From Paulownia fortunei (Eukaryota > Streptophyta > Magnoliopsida > Lamiales > Paulowniaceae): a DNA stretch of 64,000 bases. The notes under the pieces are model-generated. The model did no database searches. It was not told the DNA's origin and saw nothing but the letters and a program-made list of their open reading frames with translations. The stretch spans positions 7,032,071 through 7,096,070 of the forward strand of contig CM033118.1 in assembly GCA_019321725.1 (NCBI GenBank), written 5' to 3'. Below, in pieces: positions 35,041 through 54,071 of the stretch. Both the position numbers and the translations under genes were made by a program. Within the stretch, counting starts at the first letter, position 1; each line of letters starts with the position of its first letter.

Positions 35041-36664
35041 TTACATTCTATGCAAACCAAGAGACCTAACATGACTTATAAAGATATCTCTGGGTATTGG
35101 CTTAGTAAGAGGATCAGCCACCATAAAATAAGTAGACATGTACTTCAAAATCACCTATTTCTAACTATATCTCTAGTAAAATTGTATTTTGTATCGATGT
35201 GTTTAGTTTTGCCATGATATTTGGGGTCTTTAGTATAAGCAATAACTGAATGATTATCACAGTAAATTATTACAACTCCCACGTAATTGCTTACTACTCC
35301 CAAATGATGTAAGAATTTTCTCAATCAAGCACCTTCTTGTACTGTAGAGGCACATGCCACAAATTATGCTTCCATTATGGATAGCGATGCACAAGTTTGT
35401 TTCTTGCTTCTCCAAGAGATAGCACCACCATTTAACAAGAAAGCATATCCAGAGGTGGACTTACATTCATCCAAATCACCACCCCAGTCAGCATCTGTGT
35501 ATTCTTTTAGCAATAGATCTTTTCCTTGATAATAAAGAAAATAATCTGTAGTACCTTTTAGGTATCTAAAAATCCTTTTAACTGCACTCCAGTGTCTTCA
35601 TCCTGGATTGGATTGATACTTGCTAACTAGACCCACGGCATAACAAATATCGGGATGAGTACACATCATAGCATACATCATACTCCCAACAGCACTTGAA
35701 TATGGTACTTTAGACATCTCTTGTTTTTCTTCTGAAGTGTTTGGGTACATCTCTCAACTTAAACTTTTGCCTTTTGCTATAGGAGTATCGATGGGCTTGC
35801 AATGTTCCATTCTGAATCGTTCTAAAATCTTCTTAATATATGATTCTTGAGACAACGCAAGTAGTCTCTTAGAACGATCTTTAAGAAATTTAACACCAAG
35901 AATGTAATTCGCCTCACCTATATCTTTCATCCCGAAGTTGGAAGATAACCATTTCTTAATGGTTTGAACATACTCCTTATCATTACCGGCTAACAATATG
36001 TCATCGAAATAAAGAGATAGAATCACAAACTTTTTATTAGACCTTTTCACATAAACACAATGGTCTTCATCTATCATGACGAAGTTATATGAGATTATCG
36101 CTTTGTGAAATTTCAAATACCATTGTCTAGAAACTGCTTAAGGCCATAAATTAATCTATTCAATTTGCAGACTTTATTTTCTTGGCCTTTGATAACAAAA
36201 CCTGCTGGTTGTTCCATGTAGATTTCTTATTCAAGTTCTCCATTGAGAAAAGTTATCTTAACATCCATTTGATATAATTCTAAATCCAAATTAGCCACTA
36301 TAGTCAATAGTAGGCGAATAGAGGTAAATCTTACTACTGGCGAAAAGGTTTCTTCATAATCAATTTCCTCTTGTTGGGTATAACCTCTTGCCACTAGTCG
36401 AGCCTTATACCTCTCAATAGTTCCATCAGCCTTTCTTCTAATTTTAAGGACCCATTTGTTCCCAATAGCTTTGCGCCCAAATGGAAGATCAACCAGTTCC
36501 CAGACATGGTTTAATTCCATAGACTTTATTTCTTCTTGTATTGCTTTCATACATTTGTCCTTTGAAGGACAAGACAGAGCGTTATTTATGTTTTTAGGCT
36601 CTTCTTCATCTATTGGAGATATGATAAAAGCATGCCTTTCAATCTCATAATGATGTTTGGGCAA
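35041..36664 (-). pseudogene. Reverse transcriptase-RNase H of element N
   Basis: The first open piece (36664-36227) has the copia RT segments VWELVDLPFG and GNKWVLKIRRKADG. The second (36116-35754) has the catalytic block LSLYFDDILLAGND (Y-F-D-D in place of Y-V-D-D). RNase H follows to a stop at 35041-35043, ending MVADPLTKPIPRDIFISHV in the standard C-terminal motif. Frame changes at about 36230-36120 and in RNase H break the polyprotein. The enzyme would copy element RNA into DNA in virus-like particles. Confidence 0.88.
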
Positions 36665-37194
36665 ACCTTTTCTGTTACTTTTTCAAAGTTGAGATTCAGA
36701 TAGATCATTTTGATGAGAATTGCTCCCACTGGGATCAAGTGTTAACTCATCATCTTGAATTTCTAATGATCCTTCTTGCACATACTCATTATCTGAATTA
36801 GGCAACTCAAATAAAGGTTCTCTTTCCCTTATTTCACCTCTACTAGGAAAATCATTCTCTAGAAATGTTGCATTTCATAATTTTGTCTCAGTAATACTTC
36901 CATCATCTTGTTCACCTATGAACACATAACGTTTAGACTGCTCAGAGTATCTAATAAAGATACACTTCTTTCCTCGAGGACCTAACTTTCCAAATTTATT
37001 GGAAGAGTCATGAATGTAAACAGTTGATCCCCAAGGTTTAAGGTTGCTTAGGTTTGGCTTTCTACTAGTCTAAAGTTCATATGGAGTAGAAGATACTGAT
37101 TTTGAAGGCACTTTGTTCAAAATATATGCCGCAGTTAGCAAAGCATCTCCCCAAAAGGAAATGGGTAAGGTAGCTTGCGCCATCATAGACCTCG

Positions 37195-37672
37195 TCATAT
37201 GTAACAATGTTCTATTCCTTCTTTCAGCAACACCATTTTGTTAGATGTGTGAGGAATAGTTAATTGTCTAATTATACCTTTTTCATTACATAGATCCTTG
37301 AATTGATCAAATAGATATTCACGCCCTCGATCAGTTCTTAAAGTTTTTATTATTTTAAATATTTGATTTTCCACTTCATTTACATAACGTCTAAAACACT
37401 CTAGTACCTCATACTTATGAGAAATCAAATAGATATGACCAAAATGTGTAAAAATCATCTATAAATGTAATAAAATATGAGGCTCCATGCCTAGCCTTCA
37501 CACTCATTAGACCAGAACTATCCGAATAGATTAATTGCAATGGAAATTCTGCCCTAATGGCCTTCCCAAATGGTTTTTGTGTCATCTTTCCAACAAGATA
37601 ATGTTCACACGTAGGCAAATCTACTTTAGATAGAGAACCCAATAGTCCCACTTTCATTAGTCGATTCATCAT
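37195..37672 (-). pseudogene. Integrase of element N
   Basis: Two overlapping open pieces show the pre-integrase Cys/His region (LPTCEHYLVGKM) and the core with the first Asp near IYSDSSGL and the second in LRTDRGREYL. The third catalytic residue, the Glu after the HTS-x-Q-x-NG segment, falls beyond a one-base frame change near 37240 and is out of frame. A further integrase C-terminal region down to about 36670 is traceable only in fragments. Confidence 0.8.
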
Positions 37673-37702
37673 GTCTTGCCCAATGTGACATAATCTAGCA
37701 TG

Positions 37703-38140
37703 TCAAGTATAAACATCTACATTTGCAACACTAGATGAACCAATGTTTAGCGAAATATAATGATCAACATAATAGTTAAATATTTGTTTATCAGAATTCA
37801 ACACCATAAAACCATCCCTAAGATGTCCACTCCCATAATACAAATTATCATAGTAAATACGAACTAAACAATTGCTAAAGTTCAAGCTAAAACCTAATCC
37901 TAGAAGAACAATAACAGAAAATAAATTTCACCGAGTCTCCGGTGCATAGAGGACATCATGTAGAATAAGCGTTTGACCACCATTCAACTCCATTTTGCAA
38001 GTGCCAATACCTTTGACTTCAACTCGAGCATTATTTCCTACATATATCCACCTCATACTACAAGAAACCCGACGAAAATTTATAAATGCTTCACGCTCTC
38101 TAGTTACATGGTCTGTTGCACCTGAGTCTATAATCCACAC
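37703..38140 (-). pseudogene. Aspartic protease and spacer of element N
   Basis: 38140-37928 begins MWIIDSGATDHV, the copia protease active site (D-S-G-A-T) with the usual upstream W-I-I. It continues to HDVLYAPE, a conserved end of the domain. The following piece (37885-37703) contains NNCLVRIY/YYGSG-like spacer sequence ahead of integrase. A stop separates the two pieces. Confidence 0.85.
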
Positions 38141-38227
38141 ATGATATGATTTAGTTAATAAAATAATACTAAAGACATATATAATACTTAAAGAAGCATT
38201 ATTAAGTGCTACCTTTTTAGGCTTAGG

Positions 38228-38277
38228 GCACTCACGAGCGAAATGACCAAGTGCTTAACAGTTATAGCACTTCATTT
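38228..38277 (-). pseudogene. gag zinc knuckle of element N
   Basis: The codons encode C-Y-N-C-stop-A-L-G-H-F-A-R-E-C, a C-X2-C-X4-H-X4-C RNA-binding knuckle whose fifth residue has become a stop. It would bind the element RNA during packaging. Confidence 0.75.
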
Positions 38278-38449
38278 TGCTCGTCTTTCTTCTTTCCAAA
38301 ATGCTTATATTTGTTCTTGTGGCTGGGATTCAGGTTGTTATTCTTGGACCCTTCTCCAATCTCTTTCCCTTTCTTATTTTTCTTCCAGTTCCTCTTGCGT
38401 TTAAAGCCCAAAGCCTTTTTGGAACTAGACTCAGCTACAAAAGCACTTG

Positions 38450-39001
38450 CTATGGACTTCGCAGCACCAAGTCGCTCATCCTCAAGTTCAACATGGCGAG
38501 CAACATCAGAAAAAGTCTTAATGCTATGAAAGAGATCGGATCAAAGCTTGAACTTGCTGACTTCAATTCACGTATCATGTTTGACATAGTTCTCAAATGT
38601 TGTTTGATGTTGTGACCAGCTTGCTTTTTATAAGTGTCAAACTTGATAGTTAGTTGTCTCACATGAGTGACAGTCGTACCTCCATATTTTTCCCTGAGGT
38701 ACACCCAAATATCATGAGTAATAGCATGCTGCTCACACTCGTGAATGAGATCATCAATCATAGAGCTAACCCGAATAGCACGAGCGGTGGAGTCTTTCTT
38801 CTTCCACGCTTGGTAAGCCTCTTGATCCCTTCTCTGTTGAGCAGCAGTGCCCACACCAAGATCTTGCATGATTTGGTTGATGCCCTCCAAGGCATCTTGT
38901 TCATCCAGTACATACCAAATCTTATGGCGCCAAGTGTCATAGTTGTATTCATTCAGTTTATCACTTTTGTTAAGGTCAGCTATGATAGATTTTGATGCCA
39001 T
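38450..39001 (-). pseudogene. gag (UBN2-type capsid) of element N
   Basis: Starts at the ATG at 39001 with MASKSIIADLNKSDKLN and includes YDTWRHKIWYVLDEQD and a TVTHVRQLTIKFDTYKK block, characteristic of the UBN2 gag polyprotein of copia elements. The frame holds for about 165 codons and then shifts near 38500. About 2 kb of noncoding leader separates it from the 5' LTR. The product would form the virus-like particle. Confidence 0.88.
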
Positions 39002-42689: not shown

Positions 42690-42694
42690 TTTGC
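42690..42694. repeat. Target-site duplication TTTGC of element C (left)
   Basis: TTTGC lies immediately outside the left LTR and again at 54067-54071 outside the right LTR. Five bases is the size produced by Ty3-type integrases. Confidence 0.9.
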
Positions 42695-44308
42695 TGCTAC
42701 AACTTTAAGGTTGCAAACCCAAGTGCAGGTTGTAGTAAGTAATAAATTTCTCGTGAGTCCGAGGTCGATCCACAGGGAAGTTGTTTGAAGAATTCAAGTT
42801 TATATTTATAAAAAGATGGAGTTTATGTGAATAAAAAATATATGAACAATTAATGTATGATGTAACTAAAGAAAAAACCGAAGTAATAAAAGTACTGAGG
42901 ATTAGGGATCCACTCTTGAGTTTTGGATAGATAAATGGTTATTTATTCTTTTTACCTCTATTAATTGCCACAATTGGAATCCATACATAATGAAGGTTCC
43001 AATGGAAGATATTATCAAGTAACTCATGCAATAAGGTAATCATGATATTGTCTTACTATTGCAAATTATCTCTTAACGCCAACACTTATTTATGGGATCA
43101 AGCATTTATGTACTCCTTCATCAACAACAAATCAAGGTTTCACATTAGCAATCGGTGGAGTAAAACCGTACAATAAGCTAAATGAACCCAAGTATTTGTT
43201 GTGCCATTGGAGATACATAAATCAAGAATCACCACAAAAATAAGTAGGGTTTAGATCAAAAATAATAATAATAATACAACATACTTAAACAATTTCTACC
43301 CTTATAACCATTTCTCTTCCTCCATCAAGAGATTCACCCTTTTTACTCAGCAAAATGAAATTTGGAAAGACATAATAAAAGTAACAAAGACTAAAAATAT
43401 AAGAGAAACTAGAGAATGCATTTCTATTACTACTAGAAAACTTATAATACTAGAAAACATACAAACTAGATAACTTAGCCTAAAGAAACCCTTTTCCCCC
43501 CTCCTCTTCCAAGCTTAATACATGGCCTATTTATAGTACTTGGAGTAAGCTAGAGTCCAAACAAATAATTGAGGGGTTAATCAAGTGGTATGCTAGTTGC
43601 CAAGAGTTGGTAAGTTGTTACACAAATTTCTCATCCACTGAATTGAATTACATTTTTCGATCAGATACAGCCAGATTTTGAAGATACCTAAAGAATCAAA
43701 ATTGTAGATCTTTCAACGATGATATATTTTCATATATCTTTTGTGAAAGTTGGTTATCTTATGAAGGAGATATGGTCAAATTACCGAGTCATGTCCAAGA
43801 GCCGCCCTGTAACATCAGCAGCAACTTGCAGCCTATGGTTTTACCATTTTGACACATTTTCACACCATCTTGTCTTCAGAAAACTTGTTTATTTACCTCT
43901 TGGGTATAACATATCCGAATTTCAGACCAAAATAAATTTGGGCTCAAGATATATAACCGAATTGGTAAAATAAGTCAATACTGGGCTGAACTCTGATCCG
44001 AATTTTGGTGATCCATTTTGTGTAATTACTTGGACAAATTTTCTGCTATCATCAAGACTGAATTGGGTTGAGCCTCCAACATAAAAGTTGTACCTCTATC
44101 TCTTGGCTTTCAAATGAAACAAGCTTCAGGTCCATAGAGCTTTTGATCATGAAGTTATGCTCAAATTACAAAAACTGCACAAGTCTGAAAACATGCTTCC
44201 ATTTATTCCCTAACACAAAACATTAATAAAACAAGAATATTAACAAGAATAAAGCAAGAAAAGTATAAAGGATTTGATATAAAAATATGTCAAAATATGC
44301 ACTTATGA
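42695..44308 (-). repeat. 3' LTR of element C
   Basis: Runs from TGCTACAACTTTAAGG to GCACTTATGA on +. The terminal dinucleotide CA of the partner LTR has become GA. It contains a single 178-bp unit (about 43070-43250) and the TATA-like CTATAAATAG (43527-43536 on -). Confidence 0.93.
43527..43536 (-). promoter_or_regulatory. TATA box of the C LTRs
   Basis: CTATAAATAG on the coding strand, repeated at 53286-53295 in the 5' LTR, in a context (ACTATAAATAGGCC) typical of plant RNA polymerase II promoters. In the 5' LTR it would start the genomic RNA. Confidence 0.7.
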
Positions 44309-44322
44309 AATTCCCCCATACT
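44309..44322 (-). promoter_or_regulatory. Polypurine tract of element C
   Basis: Coding strand AGTATGGGGGAATT directly abutting the 3' LTR. Confidence 0.75.
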
Positions 44323-46095
44323 TAACCCTTGCTTGTCCTCGAGCAAGCTTAAAACAAACATAAACTAATCCACTCGTAGGAAATCACGATTGCATTTAGC
44401 ATATGCAACAAGCCTTTAAACCCCTAGGTGGCCCATAGAGGACGAGTTATAGTCTCGTGAAGGTTTCCAGCAGTGATACCTACAAACACCTATAATAACT
44501 ATCTTCCAACTTTTATTCTCATGAAGCAACAAAGTAATATGGAAATAAAATCAAACAAGTGTTGAGTTTAACTCTTAGTCATTCAAAAATCAATACATTT
44601 CCACAATAATCATACTCAAGTGTGTGTGTGGACAGTTAATGTCAATAGTGATGAAACTATGCATGTTTCAAATAAGTGAATTCTCATAAAACCTTACAAA
44701 ACCATCACTCAATCTCTAACAGAAAAGTTAAACATCATATGCTCTTCCTTTGGTGCAAATCTCCACTACATTGAAGGCACCACACAAAATCAAAAGGTCT
44801 TCAACAAAGGTTGTAATGGGGCCAAAGGGTGGTGATGTAACTAAGAAATAAAAGGATAGGATGCAACAAAGGTTCTAAAAACTTCATGGAATTAGAGACA
44901 TAAAATTTATCGATGAAGAATTCTCCAACTCCACAAATTTCACACTGGAGTCTATTGTTATTGAATTGGACCCCTCTTATTCATCTTGCAACATCTCATT
45001 TTTAGTTGCAACTTGTAGCACTTTGCAACTTTTTTTTTATATTGTTTTTCTTTTTTCTTTTTTCTTTTTTCTTTTTTCTTTTTTCTTTTTTAAGAGAAAC
45101 TCCCCCACACTTATCTTCTATTCCAACCTGAATTTCTTTTGTAAGTTCAAGCTGTCAATTGAATGTCTCTTAAACTCCAATCATTTTTAGAACAAGGGTT
45201 GGATAATAGTGTATTTACGTTAGGTAAAAAGATATGGTTACAAAAAAAAAATTATTTATTGTAAGGCTCAAAATGATTTACTAGGGGGATGTTTTCTTTA
45301 AACATCATATAGGGAACAAGCTGATTTGGCAATGGTGCTAGAAAGCCTAATGCCTTAATCATTTTTCTAGTGGTGCACTATCAGTCGTTCGCCTCAACAG
45401 ACCAAAAGTAAAAGTTCTAATACTCAACCCCTACATGTTGAAGATTCAAGTGATGATTAGAGTAAGGGCATAAGAACTATATATTTTGACATGATTGTCT
45501 TCACACTAAATAACATAACTATTTGTGCAAAATAAAATTTGAGTATAATTATCGCAAAAATATATTAACCAAATAACAACATCAAAGTCCAAAACAACAC
45601 CCATCATCAATCAAACCATATTATTCATGCTTAATTTTAATCATTGAAGTTGGAAGAACCTATACGACTCAAAAAAAAAATTGGTAATTCACAAACACTT
45701 GTTAAAAACTTTACAAACCTGCCATATTATGCAAAAAATAGGGATGCGTCTCAAGAGTGTTACAATTACCCTTTACTCAGCCACCTTTTTTTTCATGCTT
45801 TCAACGGACCCAGCAAAAAACACGCTTGATTATATTTATTTTTTATATATATTTTTTATTTTTTATTTTTTATTTTTATTATTATATTTTTTTTAAATAC
45901 TAAAAAAAACACACATTGAATATACAAGTCATGATATCAATTATCCCTCCCCCCAACCTAATCGAGACATTGTCCCCAATGTCAAAAATAGATAGGAAAG
46001 TAAAGTTTGAAAGATATCACCTGAAATGCGGCTAATAAAGCTGAAACAACAAAAAAAACACACATACTATTAGATAAAATCATTAACAATAAGTA
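44323..46095 (-). other. Noncoding 3' region of element C
   Basis: Between the LOG stop and the polypurine tract. It contains a (CTTTTTT)n microsatellite of about six units (45050-45092), AT/T-rich low-complexity sequence (45840-45900) and the conserved 18-base palindrome at 45966-45983. The frames here (for example 45644-45896 on +) are not conserved in A or B. Confidence 0.65.
45966..45983. repeat. Conserved inverted repeat in element C
   Basis: GACATTGTCCCCAATGTC on +, the complement of the motif in A at 2363-2380. It lies about 115 bases after the LOG stop and is followed by a G-rich run on the coding strand. Confidence 0.75.
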
Positions 46096-46749
46096 TCACA
46101 GACTGAGAGTCAATTTCAATTTGCATTTTCGACCATTGTTCCTGTTGGACCAATCCACATTGGCCAAGGCTGGATCAGGTTTTGGCACATATGCTAGAAG
46201 TTGATCAATCAGCTGGTCAGGTGTCGGAGCAGAAATGATGATTCTTCTCGCAGAAGTTGAAATAAACCCTTTTTTCGTAGCATGATCTACAAAAGATAGC
46301 AAACCATCATAAAAACCATTAACATTAAGAATACCTATAGGTTTTTGGTGAATGTTGAGTTGTGCCCAAGAGACAATTTGGAATAATTCCTCTAGTGTAC
46401 CAAAACCGCTAGGTAGAATGATGAATGCATCCGCATTGTTTAACATATTAGGCATTCTGTCCTGAATGTGTGACACTTTTAGCTCATCTCCAATGGTCAT
46501 ACCTGTGATATTCTGTACTGTTAAACATTTTGGGATAACTCCCAGAACTTTGACACCTCCTACATAAGCAGAAATAGCAACACTCCCCATTAACCCCAAA
46601 CTGCCTCCCCCATACACTAAATGAATTTTTCTTTCTGCTAAAGTTCTACCAAGATTATTGGCTGCCCCTATAAACTCACCATTTTTTCCTAGATTGGATC
46701 CACAAAAAACACAAATGGAATTAAATTTGCGAGTTGAAGAAACTTCCAT
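46096..46749 (-). CDS. LOG-like cytokinin riboside 5'-monophosphate phosphoribohydrolase, carried by element C
   Basis: 217 residues, the normal full length of a plant LOG protein. LOG enzymes remove ribose 5-phosphate from cytokinin nucleotides, releasing the active free-base hormone in the cytosol. Visible motifs: CVFCGSN (13-19), YGGGSLGLMG (46-55), an Arg-containing block DRMPNM (97-102) and LPSGFGTLEE (112-121). The last is the family signature PGGxGTxxE with its first Gly changed to Ser. The end is LKLTLSL, an LxLxL pattern. LOG genes normally have several introns; here there are none, so the copy came from a spliced RNA. It lies between ORFX and the 3' LTR on the element's strand. Remnants in A and B show the capture is ancestral. 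The Lys/Glu changes in the Arg block may be features of its parent clade rather than decay. Whether it is expressed or active is unknown. Confidence 0.9.
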   Translation of the reverse strand: MEVSSTRKFNSICVFCGSNLGKNGEFIGAANNLGRTLAERKIHLVYGGGSLGLMGSVAISAYVGGVKVLGVIPKCLTVQNITGMTIGDELKVSHIQDRMPNMLNNADAFIILPSGFGTLEELFQIVSWAQLNIHQKPIGILNVNGFYDGLLSFVDHATKKGFISTSARRIIISAPTPDQLIDQLLAYVPKPDPALANVDWSNRNNGRKCKLKLTLSL

Positions 46750-46987
46750 TTTTTTTTATTTTTTTTTGAAAATAAGTTGTGCAAAAATAGAGTGAGTACG
46801 GTGATATTTATTGAGGTGTGAACAGGGAATACATTTATTGCATGTCTTTTTCTTTTGTCAAAAAGATTGAAAATAAGGACACATACGAAATTTAAAAATT
46901 ACCTACTAACACGTGTATGTACATGTAGTTGTGATTGTGGCTCACATCTTCCTCTGGTTTTATGTCCAGTAACGGCTTAAACGCCCT
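46750..46987 (-). other. Spacer upstream of the LOG ORF
   Basis: About 240 bp with an A/T-rich run next to the ATG (46750-46768) and no frame. In element A the sequence equivalent to 46917 joins directly to the last LOG codons, so the piece from about 46131 to about 46913 (LOG body and probable LOG 5' leader) is what A has lost. Confidence 0.5.
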
Positions 46988-47623
46988 CTATAGATCGAGG
47001 ATATGCTTCCCATCCAGTTTTCTTATAAACTGGCAAACAGGGTCTTTTAATGTCAGATTCCCAAGACTATAAAGCTCATATTCATTTCGAAAACGATCCC
47101 ATAAATCAAGAATTGCACGTTGTACCAATCCACATGAATGCGTCTCAAGAGTCAATATAATGTGATCTAAAGACTCCTTACTCAGTCCATCCATAATGAA
47201 TTTAAGTTTATCTTCTCGATTTTTAGAGACCATTCCTAAAGAACGACACTTTGTGTTGCAAGTCCATCTAGCACAAATATGACAAACTTTCATTTTTTTC
47301 GCCCTTCGTTTTTTTGAATATGTGCTTTTACCAAAACCAGATATGTATCTAGTAAGCAAATCTGGAAACTCATGTGAAAACTCACCTGCCCTTACCTTTG
47401 CTTCAATTATCCATCGTATGTCCTCCGGGATGCCCTTGTGCATAAGCATCCTCAATCTTTCAATCCTGATTTTATAAATTTTCAAAATTGCATTTTTAGG
47501 AAGAAAAGGAAATCGCTTGTTGAGAGTTAGAAATATGCACCCATTTTGAAAATAACAACAAAAGAGAATGAGAAAAGCAAAGAAAATTTGTACAAAGATT
47601 TTCATTGTTTGGGAAACTGACAA
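46988..47623 (-). CDS. ORFX: uncharacterised 211-residue ORF in the envelope position
   Basis: Open for 211 codons between integrase and LOG. Residues 7-34 are strongly hydrophobic and could be a signal anchor or membrane segment. A basic stretch KKRRAKK (104-110) precedes a Cys cluster C114-X2-C117-X4-C122-X3-C126 that could bind zinc; the C-terminal half is polar and helical-looking. I do not recognise the family. The slot after integrase is where Athila-type elements have their envelope-like ORF, but no clear envelope feature beyond the hydrophobic segment is seen. Decayed copies in A (1566-2170) and B (22014-22260) show it belongs to the family. It could also be an older captured host sequence. 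Confidence 0.6.
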
Positions 47624-48310
47624 GTCCGACTTTTATAGCCACGGAGTACCGTTATCCGCCATTTAACGGGAAAAGAAAAAATAAAAAATAAAAGAAGAAG
47701 AAGAGAAGAAAAAAAATAAAAAATAATGTCAGATAAAAAAAGAATATATACAACACTAATCATAACAAGGGTTAGAAGAAAAAGAATTTCCTCTTGTGAA
47801 AATTGATTTTCTAGAAATGGTTTAACTCTTTGTCCATTTACTTTGAATATGTTACCATTTCTAGGATTCTCAATGTCAATCGCCCCATAAGGATATACTT
47901 TTTTTACAACAAAAGGACCACTCCACCTTGATCTCAATTTTCCAGGAAACAAATGCAATCGAGAATTATAAAGCAAAACCTTTTGACCAACCTCAAATAT
48001 TTTTCTTGAAATTTTATTATCATGAAAATCTTTGATTCTTGCTTTATAAATTTTAGAATTCTCATATGCATCATTTCTCAGTTCTTCAAGTTCATTGATT
48101 TGTAATTTGCGCAATTTTGAAGCTTCATCAAGGTTGAAGTTAAACATTTTGATTGCCCAATAAGCTTTATGTTCAAGTTCAACAGGTAAATAACAAGGTT
48201 TTCCATAAACTATCCTATAATAGAGACATGCCTAATGATGTTTTGAAAGCAGTTCTATATGCCCAAAGTGTATCGGTAAGTCTAAGAGACCAATCTTTAC
48301 GGTTTGGGTT
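47602..48310 (-). pseudogene. Integrase C-terminal region of element C
   Basis: The open piece 48147-47602 includes [30 protein letters not shown] and [14 protein letters not shown], the GPY/F-type module at the end of Ty3-lineage integrases, then runs on into noncoding-like hydrophobic codons. Between 48310 and 48150 the connection to the integrase core requires a frame change near 48230, where [15 protein letters not shown] and [18 protein letters not shown] segments are in different frames. Confidence 0.8.
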
Positions 48311-49298
48311 AACTGTTTTCTCCAAAATTTGTTTTTATCTCCCTATTTGCAAGTTCAACTTGTCCATTTGTCTGAGGGTGATAAGGGGTTGCAACTTTAT
48401 GTATGATTCCATATTTCTTCATTAAAGTTCCGAAAACTTTGTTACAAAATTTTTTTCCCCCATCACTGATAATAGATCTAGGAATTCCAAATCGACTTAA
48501 AATATTTTCTTTCAAAAATTTTATCACTATTTTGTGATCATTGTTTCGATAAGGAATTGCCTCGATCCATTTTGAAACATAATCTATGGCAACCAATATG
48601 TAAAGAAAACCAAATGATAATGGAAATGGCCCCATAAAATCAATACCCCAACAGTCAAAGATTTCAATCACTAGGATAGGGTGTAGGGGCATCATATTTC
48701 TCTTTGAAAGGGACCCTAACTTTTGACAATTTTCACAACTTTTCCAGAAAGTGTAAGTATCTTTGAAAAGAGTTGGCCAATAAAATCCACATTGCAAGAT
48801 TTTTGCAGTAGTTTTCTTTATAGAAAAATGACCACCACATGCTTCTAAATGACAAAATTTGACAATATTACCTATCTCATTGTCAGGCACACATCTTCGA
48901 AAGATTTGATCCGGACAATATTTGAATAGGTATGGATCATCCCAATAAAAAATTTTAACCTCAGTCAAAAACTTCTTTTTATCTTGAGAGTTCCAATGTG
49001 ATGGCATCTTTCCTTCTGATGATATAATGTGTCCAAGAACAATACCAGTTGTTACCATGAAGTGACATTTCTCCCAATTGAGCACAAGATTCTTTTCTTC
49101 ACACCTGATCAAAACCTTTTCTAAATTAGATAAGCAATCATCAAATGAATTACCAAAAACAGAAAAATCATCCATGAAGACTTCAAGAAAACATTCAACC
49201 ATGTCACTAAAAATACTAAGCATGCATCGTTGGAATGTAGCTGGTGCATTACATAATCCAAAAGGCATCCTTCGATATGCAAAAGTACAAAAGGACAT
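48309..49298 (-). pseudogene. RT palm fused in frame to integrase, RNase H absent (element C)
   Basis: A single 329-codon frame. Residues 1-96 are the second half of the RT palm, with MPFGLCNAPATFQ and the catalytic FMDDFSVFG. At residue 97 the sequence passes straight into the integrase N-terminal region. Residues 97-329 carry a zinc-binding H150-X6-H157...C188-X2-C191 and a complete catalytic triad D220, D279, E315, with 35 residues between the last two (D,D35E). RT thumb, connection and RNase H, normally some hundreds of residues, are missing without loss of frame. The integrase core thus looks chemically intact, but reverse transcription would fail without RNase H supplied in trans. Confidence 0.85.
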
Positions 49299-49579
49299 GT
49301 AAAAGTTGTTTTCTCTTGATCTTCAAATGCAATTGCAATTTGATTATATCCAGAATATCCATCTAAAAAGCAATAAAATTCGTGTCCTGCAACTCTTTCT
49401 AAAATTTGATCCATGAAAGGTAATGGAAAATAATTTTTTCTAGTAACTGAGTTGAGTTTTCTATAGTCAATGCACATTCGCCAACCAGTAACAGTCCTAG
49501 TTGGAATTAATTCATCATTCTCATTCTTGACTACAGTAACTCCAGATTTTTTAGGTACAACTTGAGTAGGACTGCCCAT
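49121..49579 (-). pseudogene. RT N-terminal half of element C
   Basis: Contains GWRMCIDYRKLNSVTRKNYFPLPF-type sequence (palm/fingers of Ty3 RT) and the first catalytic Asp in CFLDGYSGYNQI. A frame change near 49295 separates it from the next piece. Confidence 0.88.
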
Positions 49580-50007
49580 TTGCTATCAGAAATAGAATAA
49601 ATGATTCCATTATCTAAGAGTTTAATTACTTCATTTCTTACTACTTCTTTCATATTAGGATTTAGCCTTCGTTGCATTTCTCTAGATGGTTTAGCATTTT
49701 CCTCTAGATAGATGTTATGTGTGCAAATGAAAGGATTAATACCTTTAATATCAGCAATGGTCCATCCTAAAGCATTCTTATGCATTTTCAGAGTTTCGAT
49801 CAACTTACTTTCTTGATATGCATCGAGTTTGGAAGAAATTATTATTGGAAAAGTTTCATTCTCACCCAAGAAAGAGTATTTCAAATTAACTGGCAAAGGT
49901 TTCAATTCAACCACGGGAGCTTTAATACTTGATGGAATAGATTTTACTGTTGATGATGAAAGTTCTTCGAACCTTGGCTTCCAAAAATATTTTTCTTGTA
50001 CCTGCAA
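49531..50007 (-). pseudogene. Protease-RT linker of element C
   Basis: Contains ELKPLPVNLKYSFLGE and ALGWTIADIKGI, the conserved linker before RT in Athila-type pol. The first RT residues (MKEVVRNEVIKLLDNGIIY) follow. The frame breaks near 49560. Confidence 0.8.
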
Positions 50008-50561
50008 AAATTCAGAGATAGTATTAGTGTGTTCCTTTTATAAATACTTTCACTTTCAAAACAAGTCTCCAAAGAATCTGAAGAGTTAGTAATAGTAAAG
50101 TATTCATGAACAAGTTCATCAATTGAATCCACTTCATGTACTTCGACATCTTCTGCAGGTTGCATACAAACATTAAACACATTTAGTTCCAAAGTCATAT
50201 TTCCAAATGATAACTTCAAAATACCATTTCTACAATTGATCAAACAATTTGAAGTTGCAAGAAAAGGACGACCCAAAATGATAGGAATTTGTGTGTGTGT
50301 TTGTGCAACAGGCTCTGTGTCCAAAACAATGAAATCAACTGGAAAGTAAAACTTATCAATTTGTACCAACACATCTTCTACTATTCCCTTTGGAACTTTA
50401 ATCGAACGATCAACTAGTTGGAGTACAACAGAAGTTGTTTTAAGTTCTCCCAAACCTAACTGTTCATAAACTGAGAAAGGTAGAAGATTTACACTAGCAC
50501 CAAGATCAAGCAAAGCACGCTCTATTCTAGTGTTTCCTATGATACATGAAATGGTTGACAA
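49944..50561 (-). pseudogene. Retropepsin-like protease of element C
   Basis: Active-site segment ERALLDLGASVNLLP near residue 15, followed by VPKGIVEDVLVQID and IPIILGRPFLAT, the flap and the hydrophobic-Gly-Arg motif of retropepsins. The D-L-G-A form is also seen in other plant Athila-type proteases, so the domain may have been functional. It is separated from gag and from RT by frame changes. Confidence 0.85.
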
Positions 50562-52355
50562 CCTGGATCTTTGTACTTGGGTGGAGTGAATTGTTGAATG
50601 ATTAAACTAACACTTTCAGTTAAAAATGCCTTCTTTTGTACATGATGTTTTCTTTTGATTGTACACAAATCTTTCAAAAATTTGGCATAAGGTGGAACTT
50701 GCTTGATTGCATCCAATAATGGAATATTAATCTTGACTTGTTTAAAAATTTCAAAAATTTCAGCATTTGAGTTCAATTTCTGAGTTGCTTGCAATCTTTG
50801 AGGAAAGGGTGTTGGAGGTAAATATTTTTCTTTTTCATCATTTTCACGCTTACCTTCTTCAAACTTACCTTCATCGTCAAGACTATTTCCATTTTTCATT
50901 TCTGGAGGTGGATTAGAAACTTTCTCCTTGGATGAATAGTCTTGTCAACAACTTTTCCATTCCGAAGAGTTGTAACTGAATTAGCCTCCTTGACTGCATT
51001 TTCACCTGAAGAAGAAACATGACACTGAGTAGAAAGATTAGGTTGAGGTTGAGCAGGAAATTTACCTTTTTCATGAGTACGCAAAGAAGTTGTCAGTGTT
51101 GAAAGTGTGCTTCTGATCTCATTGATAGCTTGTGAAGTCTGATTATTGATGTTTGTTTGTTCATGCATAAATGCTTGCAAAGTCTCCTCAATAGATTTTG
51201 TATGTGGAGGTGGATAAGAATGAAAGTTTTGTGGTTTTTGTGAATGTAGTGGTTGGGCACGATTATCATCTCGCCAACTGAAATTGGGATGATTTCTCCA
51301 TTGTGGATTGTAAGTTTCAAAATATGGAGAATGGAAAGGCTTTTTGAATGTGTTCATAAAATTTGCTTGTACTGGAAGATTTGGACATTCATGGTGGAGT
51401 GCCCCAAAAGTTCACAATTGTTACAAACTTCTTCCTCTTGCACAGATTTGATTTCCTTTACTTTCTTAAGTTCCATAGCTTCAACTTTTCTTGTTAAACT
51501 AGCAAGTCTAGCATTTAGATCATTTTCTTGGCTAAGGTAATATTTTTCTTTATTACTATTAGAAAGATTAGATCTAATAGAACCTTCTGAAGAATTAACA
51601 CTATGCCATGATTGAGAGTTTTCTGCCAAATGATCTAGGTATTCTAGGGCTTCATCAGGTTCCTTATCAAGAAACTCACCATTACACATTGTTTCAACAA
51701 ATTGTTTTGTTTCAGGAGTTAAACCTTCATAAAAGAAACTAATTAAGCGCTATTTTTCAAAACCATGATGTGGGCATGAATTCAACAAATCTTTAAATCT
51801 TTCCCAACATTGAAAGAAAACTTCATTCGAATTTTGAGAAAAAATTTTAATTTAGTTTTATGAGTTGGAAAGAATTTTTTTCAAGAATTCACCTTGCATT
51901 TCTTGCCAAGTACCAATTGACCTAGGTTTTAAAGAATTAAGCCAATTTTTTGCTTTATCTTTTAAAGAGAAAGGAAATAATTTGAGCTTAACAATCTCAT
52001 TTGTGCAAGTTTGATCAACAAAAGTGGCACATACTTCATCAAATTCTTTTAAATGCAAGTAAGGACTTTCAGAGTCTAAACCATGGAAATTAGGAAGTAA
52101 AGGGATCATACCTGACTTGAATCGAAAATTATTTGCATTTAGAGGAAAAATGAAACAAGAAGGAGAAGAATTTCGAGGAGGTTGCAAGTAATAACGCATG
52201 GTACGCACCTGTTGATTCTCATTTTCATCCTGGACACTTTCATTTTCAGCCATGGTGGAAGTGTGTGGAGATGATTCAAACAAATTTCCAAACAAAGTTT
52301 CGGAATTATTTCTTACTAAACGTCGAGAATTATGACTACGATACCATATAACCAT
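50537..52355 (-). pseudogene. gag of element C (several frames)
   Basis: Gag is spread over open pieces 52355-51858, 51689-51354, 51357-50896 and 50899-50537. The first contains the capsid-type segment EFDEVCATFVDQT and KDKAKNWLNSLKP (W-L-x-S-L). The second contains a coiled-coil-like LTRKVEAMELKKVKEI and a zinc knuckle C-N-N-C-x4-H whose last Cys is lost to a one-base frame change near 51400. Further frame changes lie near 51860 and 50900. The start is uncertain: a more typical gag start is the internal MAENESVQDEN at 52252. Confidence 0.8.
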
Positions 52356-52430
52356 ATATCCATAAAGAAAATAAACAAACTATATTTACAAAGGAAAAAT
52401 ATTAACAAACCTGAATACTTACCTTGCCTT

Positions 52431-52446
52431 CCCCGCAACGGCGCCA
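52431..52446 (-). promoter_or_regulatory. Primer-binding site of element C
   Basis: Coding strand TGGCGCCGTTGCGGGG, six bases inside the 5' LTR. It matches the Athila-type site (TGGCGCCGTTGCCGGGGA, complementary to a tRNA 3' end usually given as tRNA-Asp) except for one missing C. Confidence 0.85.
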
Positions 52447-52452
52447 AAAACT

Positions 52453-54066
52453 TGCTACAACTTTAAGGTTGCAAACCCAAGTGCAGGTTGTAGTAAGTAA
52501 TAAATTTCTCGTGAGTCCGAGGTCGATCCACAGGGAAGTTGTTTGAAGAATTCAAGTTTATATTTATAAAAAGATGGAGTTTATGTGAATAAAAAATATA
52601 TGAACAATTAATGTATGATGTAACTAAAGAAAAAACCGAAGTAATAAAAGTACTGAGGATTAGGGATCCACTCTTGAGTTTTGGATAGATAAATGGTTAT
52701 TTATTCTTTTTACCTCTATTAATTCCCACAATTGGAATCCATACATAATGAAGGTTCCAATGGAAAGATATTATCAAGTAACTCATGCAATAAGGTAATC
52801 ATGATATTGTCTTACTATTGCAAATTATCTCTTAACGCCAACACTTATTTATGGGATCAAGCATTTATGTACTCCTTCATCAACAACAAATCAAGGTTTC
52901 ACATTAGCAATCGGTGGAGTAAAACCGTACAATAAGCTAAATGAACCCAAGTATTTGTTGTGCCATTGGAGATACATAAATCAAGAATCACCACAAAAAT
53001 AAGTAGGGTTTAGATAAAAAAAAATAATAATAATACAACATACTTAAACAATTTCTACCCTTATAACCATTTCTCTTCCTCCATCAAGAGATTCACCCTT
53101 TTTCCTCAACAAAATGAAATTTAGAAAGACATAATAAAAGTAACAAAGACTAAAAATATAAGAGAAACTAGAGAATGCATTTCTATTACTACTAGAAAAC
53201 TTACAATACTAGAAAACATACAAACTAGATAACTTAGCCTAAAGAAACCCTTTCCCCCCCTCCTCTTCCAAGCTTAATACATGGCCTATTTATAGTACTT
53301 GGAGTAAGATAGAGTCCAAACAAATAATGGAGGGGTTAATCAAGTGATATGCTAGTTGCCAAGAGTTGGTAAGTTGTTACACAAATTTCTCATCCACTGA
53401 ATTGAATTACATTTTCGGTCAGATACAGCCAGATTTTGAAGATACCTGAAGAATAAAAATTGTAGATCTTTCAACGCTGATATATTTTCATATATCTTTT
53501 GTGAAATTTGGCGATCGGATGAAGGAGATATGGTCAAATTACCGAATCATGTCCAAGAGCCGCCCTGTAACATCAGCAGCAACTTACAGCCTATGGTTTT
53601 ACCATTTCAACACATTTTCACACCATCTTGTCTTCAGAAAACTTGTTTATTTACCTCTTGGGTATAACATATCCGAATTTTAGACCAAAATAAATTTGGG
53701 CTCAAGATTTATAACCGAATTGGTAAAATAAGTCAATACTGGGCTGAACTCTGATCCGAATTTTGGTGATCCATTTTGTGTAATTACTTGGACGAATTTT
53801 CTGCTATCATCAAGACTGAATTGGGCTGAGCCTCCAACATAAAAGTTGTACCTCTATCTCTTGTCTTTCAAATGAAATAAGCTTTAGGTCCATAGAGCTT
53901 TTGATCATGAAGTTATGCTCAAATTACAAAAACTGCACAAGTCTGAAAACATGCTTCCATTTATTCCCTAACACAAAACATTAATAAAACAAGAGTATTA
54001 ACAAGAATAAAGCAAAAAAAGTATAAAGGATTTGATATAAAAATATGTCAAAATATGCACTTATCA
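52453..54066 (-). repeat. 5' LTR of element C
   Basis: 1614 bp, from TGCTACAACTTTAAGG to GCACTTATCA on +, with intact TG...CA ends; followed by TTTGC. The TATA-like CTATAAATAG lies at 53286-53295 on the minus strand. Confidence 0.93.
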
Positions 54067-54071
54067 TTTGC

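Follow-up and report, generated by a model that had tools for sequence, protein, structure and literature searches.

A Ty3/gypsy retrotransposon family of Paulownia fortunei carries two cargo genes after its integrase, in the fixed order of a putative carlavirus-type nucleic-acid-binding protein (NABP) and then a LOG-family gene, and the explanation offered here for the pair is given a probability of roughly 0.6. On this account the lineage's NABP would have come from a flexi-type RNA virus, or be held in common with one, and its LOG would have been acquired long ago from a spliced host transcript, both genes then being kept because they help the element. Direct observation covers the anatomy of the element, the repeated insertion of the two genes together, homologues of each of the two in other eudicots, and one sign of constraint on the NABP between lineages. 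The copy described in detail lies in a 64,000-nucleotide stretch of contig CM033118.1, positions 7,032,071 to 7,096,070 (the window), and is one broken, fairly young member of the family.

The element around LOG spans 11.4 kb (42695-54066) and has the matched LTRs, target-site duplication, and gag-protease-RT-integrase order of a Ty3/gypsy LTR retrotransposon (Table 1). Read on its own strand, the order is gag, protease, reverse transcriptase (RT), integrase, ORFX (the NABP gene), LOG, purine tract, and 3' LTR. LTR comparison and a domain scan bear out the first-pass annotation, which had placed LOG inside an LTR element, on the element's own strand, between matched LTRs and a TTTGC duplication. 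The K2P distance between the LTRs is 0.0214, corresponding to an age of ~0.8 to 1.5 million years at rates of 1.3e-8 or 7e-9 substitutions/site/year; the 3' LTR begins with TC on the element strand, where the 5' LTR has TG. The family belongs to Ty3/gypsy and OTA and probably to Athila, a placing drawn from likeness of the integrase and the primer-binding site (tRNA-Asp type).

RT is split between two frames in the window copy and RNase H had no match in any of the nine element ORFs scanned, so this copy is not autonomous. At 49298..48309, RT passes directly into integrase with RNase H unmatched, and the missing stretch is apparently an internal deletion in the window copy. The C-terminal part of integrase has no Pfam match of its own; it resembles the Rhamnella gene model P0230 (75% over 84 residues) and the contig L071 discussed below (74% over 114 residues). 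A short CTTTTT-type repeat lies between LOG and the 3' LTR (45040-45090). Elsewhere in the window, minus-strand ORFs at 35754-39001 resemble a Ty1/copia element by eye, and an ORF at 138-536 looks like a gypsy gag-protease piece, a fragment of another element.

Table 1. Features of the LOG-bearing element, in window coordinates.
Feature	Position	Strand	Basis or remark
Target-site duplication TTTGC (left)	42690..42694	.	sequence
3' LTR, 1614 bp (element on minus strand)	42695..44308	-	LTR comparison
Purine-rich tract TATGGGGGAATT adjoining 3' LTR	44309..44320	-	sequence; putative polypurine role
LOG-family ORF, no introns	46096..46749	-	217 aa; Pfam, NCBIfam, PDB comparison
LOG C-terminal tail: basic residues then LKLTLSL (LxLxL, EAR-like)	46099..46134	-	sequence
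ORFX, putative carlavirus-type cysteine-rich NABP	46988..47623	-	family-homologous part ~46988-47536
Integrase C-terminal part	47602..48147	-	likeness to Rhamnella P0230 and L071
RT end and integrase (zinc-binding, core domains)	48309..49298	-	PF00078, PF17921, PF00665
RT beginning, other frame	49121..49579	-	PF00078
Aspartic protease part	49944..50561	-	PF13650
gag part	51858..52355	-	PF03732
Primer-binding site TGGCGCCGTTGC..	52429..52446	-	sequence
5' LTR, 1614 bp	52453..54066	-	LTR comparison
Target-site duplication TTTGC (right)	54067..54071	.	sequence

LOG recurs throughout the genome in the same setting. The 509-Mb assembly holds at least 150 LOG matches at 86-100% identity (150 scored out of 4366 first-look candidates); most, though not all, are full length, and 93 of the 150, counted from the table of matches, have no internal stop. 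Among 30 copies fetched with their flanks, ORFX lies upstream on the same strand in 29 and the integrase end in 28; both are absent from the fetched stretch of copy L004, in which the 3' LTR is present. The 3' LTR was seen in all 10 copies checked further, in L016 only partially, and no 5' LTR falls within the fetched stretches of L008 and L004. Both outer LTR ends are visible in seven of these 10 copies, six with a perfect 5-bp target-site duplication and one, L003, with a mismatched one. Because other copies share LOG and the 3' LTR and have target-site duplications of their own, LOG moves with the element, and it is a standing part of the element family. A one-off capture of LOG at the window locus is ruled out by the 150 or more genomic matches and by relatives elsewhere.

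The LOG ORF (46749..46096, minus strand) runs unbroken from ATG to stop over 217 codons. It matches Pfam PF03641 (Lysine_decarbox) at 7.3e-36 and TIGR00730 over its full length at 1.3e-49, and residues 6-203 align to Arabidopsis At2g37210 (PDB 2a33) at 2.9e-61, confirming the earlier description of an intronless, full-length LOG gene. With the NCBI LOG equivalog model NF058542 the window protein scores 112.7 bits, under a 300-bit cut-off that plant host LOGs may or may not reach. Homology to the plant LOG phosphoribohydrolases At2g37210 and At5g11950 extends over nearly the whole length and includes the PGGxGTxxE motif region, but the element LOG differs from both in having no intron, a replaced lysine in the RK pair, and an extra basic LxLxL tail. 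In the window protein the motif is PSGFGTLEE, with Ser114, Arg98 and Glu121 are retained, and Met99 occupies the position of the host lysine. The tail has the LxLxL pattern that defines the EAR motif, through which plant proteins recruit TOPLESS.

These features were surveyed in an element-type set of 121 non-independent rows (the window protein and the best 120 of 4320 matches) and a host set of 120 rows, all best matches of Arabidopsis LOG3. Lys occupies residue 99 in every host row (120 of 120) and in the bacterial one but in only four of 121 element-type rows; the lysine following the conserved arginine is missing in the other 117. Arg98 is retained in 113 of the 121 element-type rows, Glu121 in 117, and the PGGxGTxxE motif in 101. 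LxLxL occurs within the last 15 residues in 86/121 element-type rows versus 0/120 host rows and is usually preceded by a basic patch; among the 35 element-type rows without it are Orobanche variants and gene models with irregular ends. Given that the conserved lysine is mostly missing and the basic LxLxL tail often present, cytokinin activation by element-type LOGs is not assured. LOG could have been kept while ceasing to be a cytokinin enzyme, acting as a nuclear protein that recruits co-repressors of the TOPLESS type or as a nucleotide-binding protein, a reading to which both the lysine and the tail counts lend weight. The largely intact motif and the mostly retained Arg98 and Glu121 argue against it, as do the Orobanche tails without LxLxL and the derivation of the host rows from Arabidopsis LOG3 matches alone, and we consider it less likely than not.

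Relatives of the window LOG extend well beyond Paulownia. The best 120 of the 4320 protein matches include Paulownia, Rehmannia, Reevesia, Orobanche, Populus, Diplodiscus, and Xanthoceras; full-length element-type LOGs of other eudicots are 56-68% identical to the window protein (62-68% in Rehmannia), and those of Orobanche fall in clusters of up to 328 members. Outside Paulownia, "element-type" is mostly a label derived from similarity and copy number, not from LTRs, and the sole direct sight of an element origin there in this analysis is the Xanthoceras gene model P0014, which joins LOG to part of the gag region (60% over 47 residues, 8.7e-12). A LOG relative (P0106) and an NABP relative (P0129) both come from 8723-base contigs, perhaps representing one element in another plant.

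A tree of 57 LOG rows (40 element-type, 16 host, and one bacterial), built by a quick search with long branches flagged, separates element-type from host rows with SH-aLRT 98. It unites the Lamiales genera Paulownia, Rehmannia, and Orobanche (support 97), and rows of the same genus mostly cluster; Reevesia and Diplodiscus, both members of the Malvaceae, fall apart. The phylogenetic comparison proposed in the first-pass annotation yielded relatives and an element/host separation, within a host sample limited to LOG1/LOG3-type rows and one LOG8. In the NABP tree the window copy stands apart from Orobanche, and with this split and that between Reevesia and Diplodiscus, plain vertical descent is not shown. 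Element-type LOGs may derive from one capture or several, and they may have spread horizontally.

Relatives in both asterids and rosids, some in large clusters, suggest that the capture is probably old, and the distribution fits a LOG lineage predating the Lamiales-rosid split. A spliced mRNA is a plausible source of the captured gene. When Sesamum P0259, a LOG3 of host type (93% to Arabidopsis LOG3), served as query, none of the 150 matches scored from 3356 candidates in the Paulownia genome exceeded 53% identity, a result that introns interrupting host LOG3 would account for. The earlier idea of a captured gene thus stands as regards an intronless LOG that lies in an LTR element and moves with it; the genomic copies and the relatives in other eudicots contradict an event peculiar to this locus and make a recent one improbable.

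Variation among the Paulownia copies is near neutral. Singletons comprise 171 nonsynonymous (N) and 49 synonymous (S) changes (3.49), and variants present in seven or more copies comprise 15 N and 11 S (1.36), against neutral N/S expectations of 3.15 (all changes), 2.58 (C>T/G>A), and 1.80 (transitions); the sample is biased, consisting of the 30 copies highest in protein score and 40 hand-picked from the 150-row table, with 20 of the 40 all without stops. Of these 70 copies, 66 are distinct and gapless; Met99 is fixed in them, the reading frame is open in 56, and Arg98 is present in 63, Glu121 in 65, Gly114 in 52, and Gly115 in 49. Near-neutral variation, with Gly114 altered in 14 and Gly115 in 17 of the 66, is what would be seen if LOG were a passenger, caught once and copied along with an element to which it is of no use. 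Without selection, however, the ORF would not be expected to stay open for such a time, and full-length element-type LOGs persist at 56-68% identity in other eudicots with Arg98 in 113/121 and Glu121 in 117/121 rows (rows that are not independent), making a mere passenger distinctly unlikely.

ORFX, on the evidence of profile matches, is a carlavirus-type nucleic-acid-binding protein, putative in function. The window copy scores 25.5 bits with Carla_C4, above the Pfam cut-off of 20.9, in a match that spans 34 residues, and 17.8 bits with Viral_NABP, under the cut-off of 23. At E 0.001 or better 248 relatives were found, and the best 120 of these are mostly ~182 residues long, fall in clusters of up to 566 members, and include Populus, Acer, Xanthoceras, Rhamnella, and Orobanche; NABP-like ORFX proteins occur in at least six plant genera. 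In 24 members chosen for spread, Carla_C4 matches all 24 and Viral_NABP 21 at E 0.01 or better (best E 1.2e-6 and 2.9e-8, respectively), and two unrelated models each weakly match one member. Members share a basic run, KKRRAK, and a set of four cysteines spaced C-x2-C-x4-C-x3-C. Gene models join the NABP to element proteins, namely to the integrase end in Rhamnella P0230 (the 75% match over 84 residues) and to protease in Orobanche minor P0240 (34% over 74 residues). In the NABP tree Acer groups with Xanthoceras, the four rows from Orobanche fall together, and so do those from Populus. The usual family start lies in another frame in the window copy, and 18 of the 29 genomic copies with NABP have a frame step near residues 25-28.

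Structural comparison gave weaker signals. A first NABP model reached pLDDT 53 and a second, of modest confidence, pLDDT 70 and pTM 0.41. A viral structure library returned 12 listed matches, the best at E 0.26 and none reaching E 0.001; five of the 12 are named silencing suppressors or NABPs of betaflexiviruses, all weak, with TM-scores of 0.15-0.19 by query length. No PDB match was found in a fold search with the second model, and no relative in viral contigs scanned with NABP and LOG alignments. The 34-residue span of the Carla_C4 match in the window copy, the weak structure matches, and a viral zinc-finger spacing that differs from that of the element protein could all follow if a small cysteine motif had matched by coincidence, with no viral homology. 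Two separate viral models matching 24 and 21 of 24 members, and silencing suppressors or NABPs making up five of the 12 viral structure matches, render such a coincidence improbable.

The reading in which a host LOG gene was already present and was later surrounded or adjoined by an LTR insertion is rejected: no point in its favor was found, and copies elsewhere in the genome, which have target-site duplications of their own, likewise hold LOG between integrase/NABP and the 3' LTR.

L071, a 3330-bp contig filed under a Candidatus Nomurabacteria MAG, carries integrase and then NABP, each as an unbroken ORF, and is evidently plant gypsy DNA contaminating the MAG. Between the window and L071, NABP dN/dS is 0.25 at dS 0.83 (a single pairwise value involving a broken copy), one sign of constraint between lineages; the two integrase parts give 0.08 and 0.07 at dS 1.7 and 2.8, near saturation. 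LOG is absent from the 983 bases of L071 after NABP, so the NABP-LOG pair is either not universal or not always adjacent.

Gypsy elements with a LOG-family coding sequence are a known kind, and the pairing of NABP with a modified LOG as standing cargo is the new part. A YgdH (LOG) domain has been described in Citrus and Populus Ty3/gypsy elements in work that cites Steinbauerova et al. 2011; the available portion of that article names no neighboring viral-type gene, tail, or lysine change, and the Paulownia family is from a Lamiales tree (PMC9289625). Extra ORFs of other plant gypsy elements likewise lie in sense orientation between pol and the 3' LTR, but those in the available text encode a plant mobile domain, Transposase_28, Athila ORF-1, or env-like proteins rather than NABP and LOG (PMC7264820; PMC6317226; PMC11728184). 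Judged from titles and the beginnings of abstracts, no publication was found linking NABP or carlaviruses with LTR elements. The accessible part of one article mentions Athila and carlavirus in unrelated contexts (PMC5967125), and the two papers containing PF01623 are about glyoxalases.

Carlavirus cysteine-rich proteins (CRPs) are commonly RNA silencing suppressors, and that of chrysanthemum virus B is a weak suppressor and also a transcription factor that induces hyperplasia, according to the available text of one source (PMC12172455). Flexivirus CRP/NABPs and the element NABP have in common the Carla_C4/Viral_NABP region and a basic stretch followed by a cysteine cluster (PMC12172455, in part); the element protein differs in its length, ~182 aa versus 82-129 aa for the named viral matches, and in being encoded by LTR elements in plant genomes. 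The NABP likely counters silencing.

In the two-cargo explanation favored here, the NABP would bind RNA and weaken the silencing directed at the element. LOG, produced from the same region, would shift the cell, in its cytokinin levels or its transcription, toward a dividing, transposition-permissive state. LOG might do so by releasing active cytokinin or, given the lost lysine and the gained EAR-like tail, through a changed role such as co-repressor recruitment; the two routes seem about equally likely. NABP and LOG may act together. More tentatively, and at less than even odds, the two could form an accessory block in a gypsy lineage whose layout is retrovirus-like, with a silencing suppressor of RNA-virus origin next to a remodeled host hormone enzyme whose tail recruits a co-repressor; jointly they would disarm silencing and push the cell to proliferate. 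Such a block would resemble the accessory genes of complex retroviruses, an arrangement for which no description in plant LTR elements was found in the literature.

Most extra ORFs of plant LTR elements have no known conserved domains, as stated in the available text of PMC9289625. The retention of such ORFs still awaits explanation. NABP and LOG both have readable homologues with activities that can be assayed, the former in silencing-suppressing RNA viruses and the latter in the hormone pathway of the host. If confirmed, the proposed roles would make it possible to test directly whether counter-defence and host-manipulating genes are carried by plant retrotransposons, and could reveal that genes pass between RNA viruses and such elements. 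Among proteins annotated as LOG, some probably belong to transposons, such as Populus "LOGL10" (P0071), which is placed in the element-type group of the LOG tree.
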